Shown here in pieces: positions 3,001-42,048 of a stretch of 64,000 nt of DNA. Below the pieces are notes generated by a model that did no database searches, was not told the origin of the DNA, and saw nothing but the letters and a program-made list of their open reading frames with translations. The DNA comes from Wenjunlia vitaminophila DSM 41686 (GTDB lineage Bacteria > Actinomycetota > Actinomycetes > Streptomycetales > Streptomycetaceae). The stretch is taken from contig NZ_KB904634.1 of assembly GCF_000380165.1 (NCBI RefSeq), forward strand, positions 63,131 through 127,130. The letters are read 5' to 3'. The translations under genes and the position numbers were made by a program. Numbering within the stretch: position 1 is the stretch's first letter; each line of letters begins with the position of its first letter.

Positions 3001-4052
3001 TCGCCAAGGTCTGGGAGGACGTGCTGGGAGTGCGGCCGGTGGGGGTGACCGACAACTTCTTCGCCCTGGGCGGGCACTCGCTGTTGGCCATGCGGGTGAT
3101 CTCCCGGCTCCAACGCAGGTTCGACCGGGACCTGGACCTCGCGGTGCTGTTCGGCAAGCCGACCGTCGCCGAACTCGCCGACGTGCTGCGCCCGGGGGAC
3201 GGCCAGGAGGCCCGCTCCCCGATCGTCCCCCTGCGTTCCCAGGGCTCCAAGCCGCCGTTCTTCGCCGTGCACCAGACCGGGATGAACACCCTGGTGTACC
3301 AGTTCCTGGCCGACGAGCTCGGCCCCGACCAGCCGTTCTACATGCTCGAGCACCCTGACATCGCGCGATTCGAACGGCTGGAGGACCTCGCCGCGCACTA
3401 CACCGCGGCCATCCGGGAGGAGTTCCCCGAGGGGCCCTACCGGCTGGGCGGGCTGTCCTTCGGTGGCCTCGTCGCCTTCGAGGTCGCCCAGCAGCTCGTC
3501 GATGCCGGGGAGGAGGTGGACCTCGTCACCCTGTTCGAGGCGTCCCTGGCCGGTACTCCCCCGGACAAGGGCAGCCCGCAGCGGCTCCTCGCCTACCGCA
3601 CCCACCACTACGCGAGGGTCTTCGAGCTGATCTTCCACCGTTCGGTGCGGCTCACCGAGGAGGAGTTGCTGCCGCTGGACGAACAGGGCCAGCTCGAGCT
3701 GTTGTACGCGCGGGTGGAGGAGGTGCTCGCCGGTGACATCGGCATCGACCTGTTCCGCTCCACGGTCGAGGCGGTGCGCACCGCCCGCCGGATGGTCCAG
3801 GGCTACCGGCCCCGTCCGTGGGACCGCCCGCTGCACCTGTACATCGGTCTCGAGCCCATGCCCGAGGGGATCAACGACCCTGAGTTCTACCGCCCCGACC
3901 GTGCGCTCGGCTGGGACGCGGTGGCCCCCCGGCTGGAGATCACCGACGTGCCCGGCGATCACCTCACCCTGCTGAACCCGCCGCACGTGCAGGTCCTGGT
4001 GCGGCACCTGCGTCCGCTGCTCGGCGGCGGCGACCCCGAGGAGCGGTCATGA
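1..4052 (+). CDS. Non-ribosomal peptide synthetase, terminal module (C-end)-A-MT-PCP-TE, 5' partial
   Basis: The reading frame is open from base 3, so the gene begins upstream of the window. In order: the end of a condensation-type domain (about 3-180); an adenylation (A) domain from about 230; a methyltransferase inserted between A8 and A9 (SAM motif VLEIGCGTG near 1750-1775); the A-domain tail; a carrier domain (DNFFALGGHSL, Ser codon 3078-3080); and a thioesterase (GLSFGG, catalytic Ser codon 3456-3458). This is the layout of a last module that N-methylates and releases the peptide. The A domain is abnormal: A3 reads TTAGATGEPKP instead of SGSTGxPKG, A5 reads VYATAETAG, and the A10 lysine is replaced (LPLTRHGRPD). 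It may not activate its own amino acid. The stop overlaps the next gene's start (ATGA). The peptide product is unknown. Confidence 0.93.
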   Translation, partial: GERLGLRVSYDPTWLADDAAERLLGHLATLLTELTADPRRRLRQVPMLTGEERRHLAEWSTGPASEPGSAQRAVAAHAARAPQAVAVASGGRRLTYRELDQRVNRLAHHLAGRAVGRDTVVGILLPDRMAEVEALLAVSRAGGAPLVLDPQLPPARLAAEVRQVRPHLVLSVGDAAGGLPARDCQVLLLDEEAGNVERQPAEPPATGVAEDWLAAVVTTAGATGEPKPVLLDGAAVSAMSHAAGTGFGLTSDDVVLHLAPPGSADALFELHLALVSGATLRLPERAVSASALLADPAALAGVTCARVTPALLAALPGDGALPGVRTLLVSGERCAPGTLRRWAAGRALFHVYATAETAGLAAAARIGAEPDAPTALRPTSGVTAHVMDGTGEPLPVGVPGELHLGGPAVARGYLGRPALTAERFRSDPFSDRRHARLLRTGDLARWTGDGRLEVLGRTDRRMTVRGHVVDPAEVEDALVSLPTVEQVVVTADGRGEERRLVAHVVPVAEGTDRGAADLEDDQVGQWREVFGHTYAGPAASDDAEFNTVGWNSSFTGAAIPQEEMREWLDATLDRLRALAPRRVLEIGCGTGMLLLPLSRACEQYWATDLSPAAIDYVRGRLDPSVAERVTLRCQEGDDFTGVPEGAFDLVVINSVAQYFPHAEYLRRVLDRARGALRPGGQVFVGDVRSLPLMPAMHLDIQLANSFDHRDARELAQAVDRDCRRDEELVLHPDFFRRIVAESPHGGVTRITAKRGRAHNEMSRFRYDALLTFGTVPGDAGAAPDGQPSLVRSTWEEDGGTLEGLREALSKGPDALLVRSVPDLRAHGLAVAARALAEGSGPRNAGALRAAIDADDAVEPEALHALAADCGYAAELLVGEEPGTVDALFTPVGGPWDQPGAARVALWSAVDAARPVPLPWPRCANDPLTHRRERRLLPRLFTALEAALPSHLVPDDIVLAGGLPLTRHGRPDVAALPSPERPARADVEAFTPPRDSTELLIAKVWEDVLGVRPVGVTDNFFALGGHSLLAMRVISRLQRRFDRDLDLAVLFGKPTVAELADVLRPGDGQEARSPIVPLRSQGSKPPFFAVHQTGMNTLVYQFLADELGPDQPFYMLEHPDIARFERLEDLAAHYTAAIREEFPEGPYRLGGLSFGGLVAFEVAQQLVDAGEEVDLVTLFEASLAGTPPDKGSPQRLLAYRTHHYARVFELIFHRSVRLTEEELLPLDEQGQLELLYARVEEVLAGDIGIDLFRSTVEAVRTARRMVQGYRPRPWDRPLHLYIGLEPMPEGINDPEFYRPDRALGWDAVAPRLEITDVPGDHLTLLNPPHVQVLVRHLRPLLGGGDPEERS

Positions 4053-36525: not shown

Positions 36526-37122
36526 ATGCGGATCGTGGTCAGCGAGTTCATCAGCCTGGACGGCGTCGTGCAGGCCCCGGGCGGCCCCCAGGAGGACACC
36601 GACGGTGGTTTCGCCCACGGCGGCTGGTCGGGCCCGTTCTTCGACCCCGAGGTCATGGGTCCCGTCTTCAACGACGTGATGACCAAGGCCGAGGCTCTGC
36701 TGTTCGGGCGCCGCACGTGGCAGACGATGGCCGCGGCGTGGCCCGAGCGGGCCGGTGACCCGTTCGCCGACCGGATGAACGCCATCCCCAAGTACGTCGT
36801 CTCCTCGACGCTGAGCGACGCGGAGCTGACCTGGGACAACACCACACGCATCCCCGGTGAGGAGGCCGTCGCCGGCATCCGGAAGCTGCGGGACTCCGAC
36901 GGGGGCGACCTGGTCGTCATGGGGAGCCCCACGCTCGTGCGCGCCCTGCTTGGCGAGGGGATGGTGGACGAGCTCCGCCTCATGATCGAGCCGGTGATCC
37001 TCGGCGGCGGCAAGACGATCTTCCCCGACAACGGCGTGCTGCGGACCCTGGAGCTGGTCTCCACCGTCACCAGCAGCACGGGCGTGCACGTCTGCACCTA
37101 CCGGCTGGCCTCCGAGGGATAG
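36526..37122 (+). CDS. Dihydrofolate reductase-like (RibD C-terminal) protein
   Basis: A 198-residue NADPH-reductase-fold protein: MRIVVSEFISLDGVVQAPG, LLFGRRTWQTMAAAWP, KYVVSSTLSDAELTW, GGDLVVMGSPTLVRALLGEG, VILGGGKTIFPD. These match the DHFR/RibD-C family that is abundant in actinomycetes and is distinct from FolA. AAGGAG lies 9 bases before the ATG. The substrate is unknown. Confidence 0.9.
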   Translation: MRIVVSEFISLDGVVQAPGGPQEDTDGGFAHGGWSGPFFDPEVMGPVFNDVMTKAEALLFGRRTWQTMAAAWPERAGDPFADRMNAIPKYVVSSTLSDAELTWDNTTRIPGEEAVAGIRKLRDSDGGDLVVMGSPTLVRALLGEGMVDELRLMIEPVILGGGKTIFPDNGVLRTLELVSTVTSSTGVHVCTYRLASEG

Positions 37123-37238
37123 GCCGGAGCGCGGTGGTGGACGGCCCACGGGCGTCCCCAGCGGGCCTTGAGGCAGCCGGCCCGCTTCGCGCCGGGCGTC
37201 GAGAGCCACTGTCCGACCCGGTGCCTAGGGTTCGGGTC

Positions 37239-38087
37239 ATGACGTTGCCTCCTCGCCCCTCGCGCGCCCGGGGCGGCACCCCCCTTCACGGCGCGGGCCG
37301 CTCCACGGTGTCCGCCGGCCACGGTCCGCTACGGGGCGCGTCGGCCAGCAGCCGCGGCGGCCGGCGCCACTCCCTGCTGTGGCGCGCGGACGAGGAGGCG
37401 ACGGGGGACTCCTGGGCGCGGCTGCTTCCCGCGCACCGGACGACGGGGCTGTGGCCGGTGCTGCTCGGCGGGCGCCGCGGGCGTCCCTGGGACCGCGCGC
37501 CCGCCCCGCACCCGGGCTCCGACCCGGGCGCGTTCGACGCCGAGGCGCTCCTGCGGTGGTGGTGGGCGCGGCACGTCCCCCCGGCCCCCCACCAGGCCCC
37601 CAGGACCTGCTGGGAAGGCACCTCTGCCTCCCCCCGTCCCCGGTGGCCCGGCCTGGCCGCCACCCCGCCGCCCGAGGACGATCCCGACGTGGTGGCGGCC
37701 AGGGTCGCCGGTGAGCTGGTGGAGCACGCGATGCTGTGTCGGCCCCGGGTGGGCCTCGTTCCGGCGGGGCGTGGGGCCGACGTGTTGGCCGCCGTCGGTT
37801 GGACCGGCCGGCCGGGGGGCTGTGACGGCCACGACGCCGCGCAGTCCAGCGCGGTGCTGCGGAGCTGGGAGGACAGGTTCGGGGTGCGGGTCGTCGCGCT
37901 GGAGGAGCACGGCGTGCTGCACGTCTCGGTGGCGGGGCCACCGCGGACGCTCGACCAGGCCGTGGCGGTGGCGGCCGAACACCTCGCGTTCTGCCCCGAC
38001 AACGTACGGCGGTGCGGAGGCACGCTGGCCCGCTACGCGCGCGAGCATCTGCGGGGCAGGGACCACTGGTCCTTCCGCTGGGGCTGA
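37239..38087 (+). CDS. DUF4253-domain protein
   Basis: A 282-residue protein of unknown function. The C-terminal half has the DUF4253 pattern: VLRSWEDRFGVRVVALEEHG, QAVAVAAEHLAFCPDNV, REHLRGRDHWSFRWG. The N-terminal part is Arg/Pro-rich and partly low complexity. ATG 37239 sits 7 bp after TAGGGT (37226-37231), a possible -10, which would give a leaderless transcript. Confidence 0.82.
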   Translation: MTLPPRPSRARGGTPLHGAGRSTVSAGHGPLRGASASSRGGRRHSLLWRADEEATGDSWARLLPAHRTTGLWPVLLGGRRGRPWDRAPAPHPGSDPGAFDAEALLRWWWARHVPPAPHQAPRTCWEGTSASPRPRWPGLAATPPPEDDPDVVAARVAGELVEHAMLCRPRVGLVPAGRGADVLAAVGWTGRPGGCDGHDAAQSSAVLRSWEDRFGVRVVALEEHGVLHVSVAGPPRTLDQAVAVAAEHLAFCPDNVRRCGGTLARYAREHLRGRDHWSFRWG

Positions 38088-38119
38088 TCCCGGGAGCCCC
38101 TGCGGCGCGCGCCGGTCCG

Positions 38120-38300
38120 CTAGGGCCTGTCTGATAAATCCCGCCTGGGTCGTGACGCCTGGCACGCACGCTCGCTGCGTTGTCGGGATCGTCCACGTAC
38201 GCCCAGTACGAGGACGACCCTCCGCCTTGCGATCGCACGCACCAGACGCCGCGACCCCCGCCCTCCGGGCGGACGACGCTACTTATCAGACAGGCCCTAG
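38120..38300. mobile_element. MITE-like element, 181 bp with perfect 18-bp terminal inverted repeats
   Basis: The left end CTAGGGCCTGTCTGATAA (38120-38137) is the exact reverse complement of 38283-38300. The interior also pairs with itself imperfectly (around 38147-38180 with 38225-38255), so the whole element could form one long hairpin. It encodes no transposase. TA or CTAG may be the duplicated target. It lies between the DUF4253 gene and the ThuA-LacZ pair. Elements with similar ends are, to my recollection, scattered in streptomycete genomes. Confidence 0.85.
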
Positions 38301-38310
38301 GGGCGGCTCC

Positions 38311-38316
38311 TACGAT
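38311..38316 (+). promoter_or_regulatory. Possible -10 of a leaderless ThuA promoter abutting the MITE
   Basis: TACGAT lies 7 bp before ATG 38324. A -35-like CAGACA (38287-38292), 18 bp upstream, falls inside the MITE terminal repeat. Confidence 0.45.
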
Positions 38317-38323
38317 GGGGGCC

Positions 38324-42048
<3,725 letters not shown>

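Follow-up and report, generated by a model that had tools for sequence, protein, structure and literature searches.

Our question was what kind of element occupies positions 38120 to 38300 of the window (the whole 64,000-nucleotide stretch of Wenjunlia vitaminophila DNA analysed here), and what might move it. A sequence-only reading had described a MITE with identical inverted ends, TA/CTAG boundaries and a self-complementary interior. All three features were confirmed. The complete element, on the + strand, measures 181 bp when the CTAG at either end is counted. Its left terminal inverted repeat, CTAGGGCCTGTCTGATAA, lies at 38120-38137 (+ strand), and the perfect complement of this 18-bp sequence forms the right terminal inverted repeat at 38283-38300 (- strand). 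In the window, CTAGGGCCTGTCTGATAA has only 2 matches at three mismatches or fewer, and there were none in 100 shuffles. The outermost bases of the repeats are the left CTAG boundary (38120-38123, where the target duplication may be TA or CTAG) and the right one (38297-38300). Further in, also on the + strand, a conserved core motif has its left half, GCACGCTCGCTGCGTTGTCG, at 38166-38185 and its right half, CTCCGCCTTGCGATCGCACGCACCA, at 38220-38244. Between them is the core apical hairpin (38185-38220). A side hairpin, CCGCCCTCCGGGCGG, is found in the right arm only (38258-38272).

Folded alone, a single strand of 38120-38300 forms one long hairpin. Compared with dinucleotide shuffles, the fold is far more stable, both as DNA (z -6.6) and as RNA (z -7.5), and in each case none of 200 shuffles was as stable. 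A search of 37000-40000 with Rfam gave no family match, and its one microRNA-model match (E=1) fell far below the gathering score. Open reading frames crossing the element were taken for chance frames of GC-rich DNA. With the frames so taken, the element is short (181 bp), non-coding and bounded by 18-bp inverted repeats, as a MITE should be. Outside it, one + strand frame ends at 38087 and another has ATGs at 38315 and 38324. Hence, the MITE fills the space upstream of the second frame.

A MITE should also be present as many near-identical, dispersed elements. With BLAST, the 6.43-Mb draft genome of the host (111 contigs) gave at least 42 matches; this is a lower bound, as scoring covered 40 of the 110 first-look candidates. 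Of these, 25 span at least 177 of the 181 bases at 96-100% identity (rounded; the lowest value is 95.6). The remainder include copies cut by contig ends, and many of the contig ends in this draft assembly hold a MITE copy. The 36 loci with flanks read represent 31 sites, because five pairs have common flanks; further such pairs are possible among truncated copies at other contig ends. CTAG is on either side of most full copies, and the variant boundaries include CCAG..CTGG, CGAG..CTAG and TTAG..CCAG. Searching for the ends alone, at up to two mismatches, returned 41 forward and 36 reverse matches (0 and 1 in a reversed control). Among the unpaired ends that were fetched and read (several others lie e.g. 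on contigs C24, C32, C57 and C90), several are short remnants near gene ends. The one congeneric genome searched contained no match. Recent mobility (the perfect ends had been taken to suggest recent or maintained mobility) fits both the similarity of the host copies and this result from a single congener.

Next, we consider the target site. For three related MITEs, all located on Streptomyces plasmids, insert-free relatives were found. The first, in S. atratus (L360), reads CCGCTAG-MITE-CTAGGGCCTT. Its insert-free counterpart (L362) reads CCGCTAGGGCCTT, with a single CTAG, and matches on both flanks. A third locus (L366) agrees with these two in its left flank and CTAG and differs in its right flank. 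The second MITE, in NBC_00028 (L361), reads CTAG-MITE-CTAG; its counterpart (L363), whose flanks differ slightly, has a single CTAG, and another insert-free relative (L365) is without CTAG at the site, where it has the stop codon TAA. Target-site duplication is thus seen for two plasmid relatives (L360/L362 and L361/L363). The third pair is weaker as an empty site. Here, in NBC_00354 (L357), we find GCGCTAG-MITE-CTAGCACTGG, and the closest insert-free relative (L364) reads GCGCTGACACTGG, matching on both flanks with CTGA at the site; a further relative (L367) has CTAG and a different right flank. Duplication of TA and of CTAG both fit, since either gives the same empty site. A relative with TTAG..CTAA boundaries (L308) fits a 2-bp TA duplication. 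The empty sites, which the sequence-only reading had asked to compare, thus belong to relatives on plasmids rather than to host copies.

These alleles bear on a quite different origin. REPINs are palindromic elements with genome-specific ends, and the CTAG could, in principle, be part of a REPIN-like palindrome, mobilised by a tyrosine (HUH) transposase that is itself non-mobile and single-copy. Ends that differ between genomes yet remain complementary, and a structured interior, would suit this idea. So would the five relatives with mirror-symmetric non-CTAG boundaries discussed below, and the fact that an autonomous copy was not seen in several MITE-rich genomes. However, insert-free alleles have one CTAG and occupied alleles have two (L360/L362 and L361/L363). 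Hence, in contrast to REPIN/RAYT systems, CTAG is doubled on insertion, and there are IS5 elements with matching ends and the same boundary. We regard a REPIN-like origin as highly improbable.

Outside the MITE, CTAG occurs 7 times in the 64-kb window, compared with 161 expected from base composition (~20-fold rarer). In the occupied plasmid alleles (L360, L361 and L357), the CDS annotated next to the MITE terminates in the element's CTAG. The insert-free alleles have the gene stop at the same place: TAG in L362, L363 and L367, TGA in L364 and TAA in L365. Hence, the stop codon of the neighbouring gene was the target, and after insertion a stop is still in place. In the host, the boundary TAG ends a gene-like frame, judged by a GC-position rule, at 15 of 31 sites, with flanks too short for testing at some of them. 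Other CTAG sites end such a frame in 6 of 21 cases in fetched host DNA and 2 of 7 in the window. The excess at MITE sites (15/31 vs 6/21) is not significant (Fisher p 0.25), so CTAG targeting alone could give the host figure. The choice of CTAG as target explains how copies can land harmlessly on gene stop codons.

An alternative is that the element has mainly been domesticated by the host, for a regulatory or structural purpose (as a terminator, in RNA processing or as a nucleoid site), and that transposition is only ancient. Many copies at stop codons are consistent with such a role, as is a conserved folded core that contains many conserved unpaired bases (see below). Conversely, the host copies share 96-100% identity and the congener had no match to any of them; gene ends are also not clearly more frequent at MITE sites than at other CTAG sites. 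We consider domestication of this kind very unlikely.

If the element is non-autonomous, a transposase using the same ends should exist, and the sequence-only reading expected it in the host genome. So far this expectation has not been borne out: in the draft assembly (111 contigs) we saw no IS with exactly the ends of the MITE, only related ends. A full-length IS was found elsewhere, in S. paradoxus (L227). This IS5-family element of 937 bp, with CTAGGGCCTGTCTGATAATTGATC on the left and CTAGGCACTGTCTGACAAACGATC on the right, has the CTAG boundary, and its left end is identical to that of the window MITE (CTAGGGCCTGTCTGATAA) over 18 of 18 bases. It is the sole exact 18-mer among 80 loci. The right boundary of L227 coincides with a contig end. 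The 18/18 agreement with an autonomous IS5 element is for one end. Unlike the MITE, which has no transposase, L227 encodes a DDE transposase read in two frames, with matches to DUF4096 (E 3e-32) and DDE_Tnp_1 (1.6e-23), and to NCBIfam IS5_3 (NF033580) above cut-off. By definition, an IS5 MITE does not need a helper in the same genome, since helpers can be lost or unassembled.

These 80 loci are the best of 505 relatives obtained by scanning genome contigs with a piece of the transposase from an IS5 element of genome G360. Among them, the motif GTCT(G/C)(A/G)NAA is found at both IS ends in 46, at one end in 26 more (some being cut by contig ends) and at neither in 8. A wrong-strand control found the motif in none of 80 left windows. 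CTAG precedes the end motif at both ends in 22 of the 80. The host itself has a multi-copy IS5, broken over contig ends (C49, C18, C34, C43 and C45; L113-L115, L117 and L118), that ends in CTAGGCCGTGTCCGTAAAGTC and CTAGGTCGTGTCCGCAAAGTC. The former has 15 of 21 bases in common with the left end of the window MITE, and the latter is one base in 20 off the MITE ends of genome G302 (L079). Other host PF01609/PF13340 hits were read for matching ends, and those on C70 and C3 had no clear end pair. The PF13359 profile had no match in the host genome, though C56 carries a broken remnant that was picked up by an IS112-like query.

IS112-like IS5 elements of Streptomyces have ends CTAAGGGCTGTCCCGTAA and similar, with a framework in common with MITE ends. 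Like the MITE family, they have a CTA/TAG boundary, with ends such as AAGGGCTGTCCCGTAA, and IS112-type ends occur with a like core on two MITEs (L071 and L373). They differ in having an HTH_Tnp_4/DDE_Tnp_4 transposase and ends unlike those of the window element. IS112- and IS1647-like elements have been reported in S. albus (PMC3937824), a paper that has no mention of MITEs. In one locus (L144), an IS112-like element adjoins a MITE at a common TAG boundary, and MITE pieces adjoin IS ends in three others (L243, L255 and L257). In G360, the IS5 element used for the scan ends in TAGGGCCTGTCTGACAAATGAT. For another end type, in G344, G360, G284 and G377, no pair 0.7-2 kb apart was present among the matches listed at up to two mismatches. 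A 1520-bp IS5 element of G360 (L185, 2078-3597), with ends GGCCGTGTATCGAAA(G/C)T, comes close to such a pair. It sits between two IS112-like elements and has an extra frame beside the transposase, SnoaL/NTF2-like by eye. Similarly, 30 further IS5 loci in MITE-bearing genomes gave few readable end pairs. An exact IS partner came to light for few of the end types; some others have IS5 counterparts, and not every type was matched. The MITE core was not found in the IS bodies examined, and matches in L215, L243, L255 and L257 lie outside the IS as delimited here. Hence, the MITE is unlike a simple internal deletion of these elements.

These elements also speak against an IS630/Tc1-mariner MITE, inserting at the TA within CTAG and moved by an IS630-family transposase. 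TA within CTAG is a preference of IS630 too, one MITE has an IS630-family transposase gene nearby, and L308 fits a 2-bp TA duplication. In PMC2229807, the RUP element is linked to IS630-Spn1 and TA targets, and on this reading our element would be like RUP. However, the ends of the IS630 near the one MITE are of another kind altogether (TAGTCTTCTGAGTCAGG), DUF4096/DDE_Tnp_1 IS5 transposases are encoded by the elements whose ends do match, and the 18/18 identical end of L227 disfavours the reading. We judge it very unlikely. Note that IS630 and HUH origins were both raised from the TA boundary and the hairpin; they were dropped given IS5 elements with the same ends. The identification as a non-autonomous transposable element is thus supported, on the basis of many copies, CTAG boundaries, three relatives with insert-free alleles and an IS5-family element with the same left end. 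Apparently, the window element is a recently active IS5-type MITE.

How widespread is the family? Searches of the host genome and relatives for such elements, as the sequence-only reading had advised, returned many host copies and relatives across the host's family. At E<=0.001, matches were found in 328 of 394 genomes of that family, host included, with at most two candidates scored per genome and the weakest matches near the limit. Hence, the element is far from a single copy, and empty-site polymorphism exists, for its relatives. Among plasmid records 51 match, all from Streptomyces, and 12 do so over at least 80% of the element. Phage records gave no match. In viral contigs the core pattern and GGGCGTGTTTCGAAAGT were both absent (0 hits each), and the 21 stretches that matched the end of the window MITE are attributed to chance for a 16-base pattern. 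A phylum-wide search for the core pattern found it in 12 of 396 genomes. Five are among the 12 host-family genomes sampled (24 hits in G000, 29 in G063, 4 in G023, and 1 each in G009 and G047). Outside the host's family, seven genomes had one hit each; a backward control gave 5 single hits, so these look like chance. One locus in another family of the phylum (L379, genome G702) has a single sequence with the same two-part core motif around a hairpin, without clear matched ends, and is possibly a distant relative or chance.

We compared 70 copies: the window element and one from each of 69 other genomes. The 69 were picked from the best matches listed, so weaker relatives are under-represented. 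All 70 were used for end identity within and between copies. For helix, identity and boundary counts we used 63, having dropped seven (L091, L092, L094, L099, L106, L311 and L318) with unresolved, shifted or hybrid ends. The two ends of one copy agree at 18.06 of 20 bases, compared with 13.63 of 20 for ends of different copies (n=70). Bases 9-19 of the ends comprise 29 different sequences. Even so, in 46 of 63 copies the left and right versions of this variable part are identical, against 5.9 expected on re-dealing right ends (maximum 15 in 5000). Mean pairwise identity is 0.60 (left) and 0.59 for the variable end parts and 0.57-0.65 for the apical hairpin. For the left and right core motifs it is 0.86 and 0.88, values favoured by ascertainment because copies were retrieved by similarity to the window MITE.

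The same core occurs with many ends. Host copies end in GGGCCTGTCTGATAA and those of G063 in CTAGTGCTGTGACCGGAAAGG, whereas G023 has two end types, GTGTCCGGCGGATC and GTGTCGCCGATCAGG (L374 and L383). In L373 the core has the IS112-type ends AAGGGCTGTCCCGTAATC. In G360, one end type is paired at several spacings, with starts ~50, 158 and 197 bases apart; several MITE forms there seem to have this end type in common.

Compensatory double changes were found in four of the six helices, the longer ones, and maintain pairing in the apical hairpin despite its variable sequence. Double-change cells number 187 for the end helix, 128 for the arm, 131 for the apical hairpin and 10 for the side hairpin; the corresponding shuffle means are 51.6, 32.9, 37.4 (maximum 57) and 0.5. 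None of 200 shuffles reached the counts of these four helices; note that the counts are not probabilities, because related sequences can exceed shuffles without structure. The short helices 23-24/158-159 and 58-60/104-106 had no double changes. Unpaired core bases 45, 48, 52, 61-63, 65, 107-109, 117, 118, 121 and 122 are 92-100% conserved. Bases 57 (46%), 64 (70%) and 102 (68%) are variable. Mean conservation is 0.88 for unpaired core bases and 0.96 for paired. That these mismatches are conserved hints that the core has a role under selection; it may be a binding site for a factor of the host or of transposition, or function as RNA.

How might both ends change together? Nine of the 63 copies are without CTAG on both sides, and five of these have mirror-symmetric boundaries, e.g. 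CTGG..CCAG and CGAG..CTCG. Only 0.46 would be expected when boundary tetramers are re-dealt, and none of 5000 re-dealings reached five. Direct repeats are what target duplication would produce; mirror symmetry suggests that one arm was corrected from the other, within a hairpin or through template switching. Some of the symmetry could also come from insertion into other symmetric targets, such as TTAA for L308.

We propose that DDE transposases of the IS5 family (DUF4096/IS5_3 type) would move the MITE in trans, and that they probably recognise the outer ~15-18 bases of the ends. Insertion would be at CTAG, with TA or CTAG duplicated. The lineage, found in most of the genomes sampled from the host's family, would keep its folded core of ~100 bp, presumably under selection for a role. 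Both ends would change together, one arm being corrected from the other by a hairpin- or template-directed process, and so match different IS5-family elements. If so, the MITE can follow different IS5-family transposases. Taken as a whole, an IS5_3-moved, CTAG-inserting MITE from a lineage with a kept core and jointly changing ends is very probable, the strength of the claim lying in the two CTAG empty sites and the exact IS end. More tentatively, an old, modular MITE lineage could combine a selected folded core with hairpin-directed end correction, allowing shifts between IS5-type transposases with symmetry kept; this we hold to be possible, if somewhat short of probable.

The window MITE alone is of a known kind. 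What is unexpected is one core, across the host's family, with many matched ends. MITEs are usually tied to a single parent element and fade upon its loss. A stable core with interchangeable, self-matched ends would, if true, explain the persistence of a gene-free parasite across most genomes of the family. Such a lineage would also offer a natural series of end/transposase pairs with which IS5 specificity can be tested, and the MITE could serve as a strain marker. Among the matches listed from open-licence literature, no streptomycete MITE family of this kind is described. The review PMC2229807 describes RUP, of Streptococcus pneumoniae, and Correia/NEMIS, of Neisseria, as gene-free and under 200 bp, with terminal inverted repeats, TA termini and stable hairpins, all features of our MITE. 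According to this review, which has no mention of Streptomyces or IS5, most such bacterial elements are A+T-rich, and RUP is linked to IS630. Unlike RUP and Correia elements, the window MITE is GC-rich and IS5-linked, with diverse matched ends on one core. The host itself has a second MITE with a like core and IS112-type ends, CTAAGGGCTGTCCCGTAATC, at ~3120-3320 of locus L071 (C68:62500-69000), where it directly adjoins a remnant of a window-type element.
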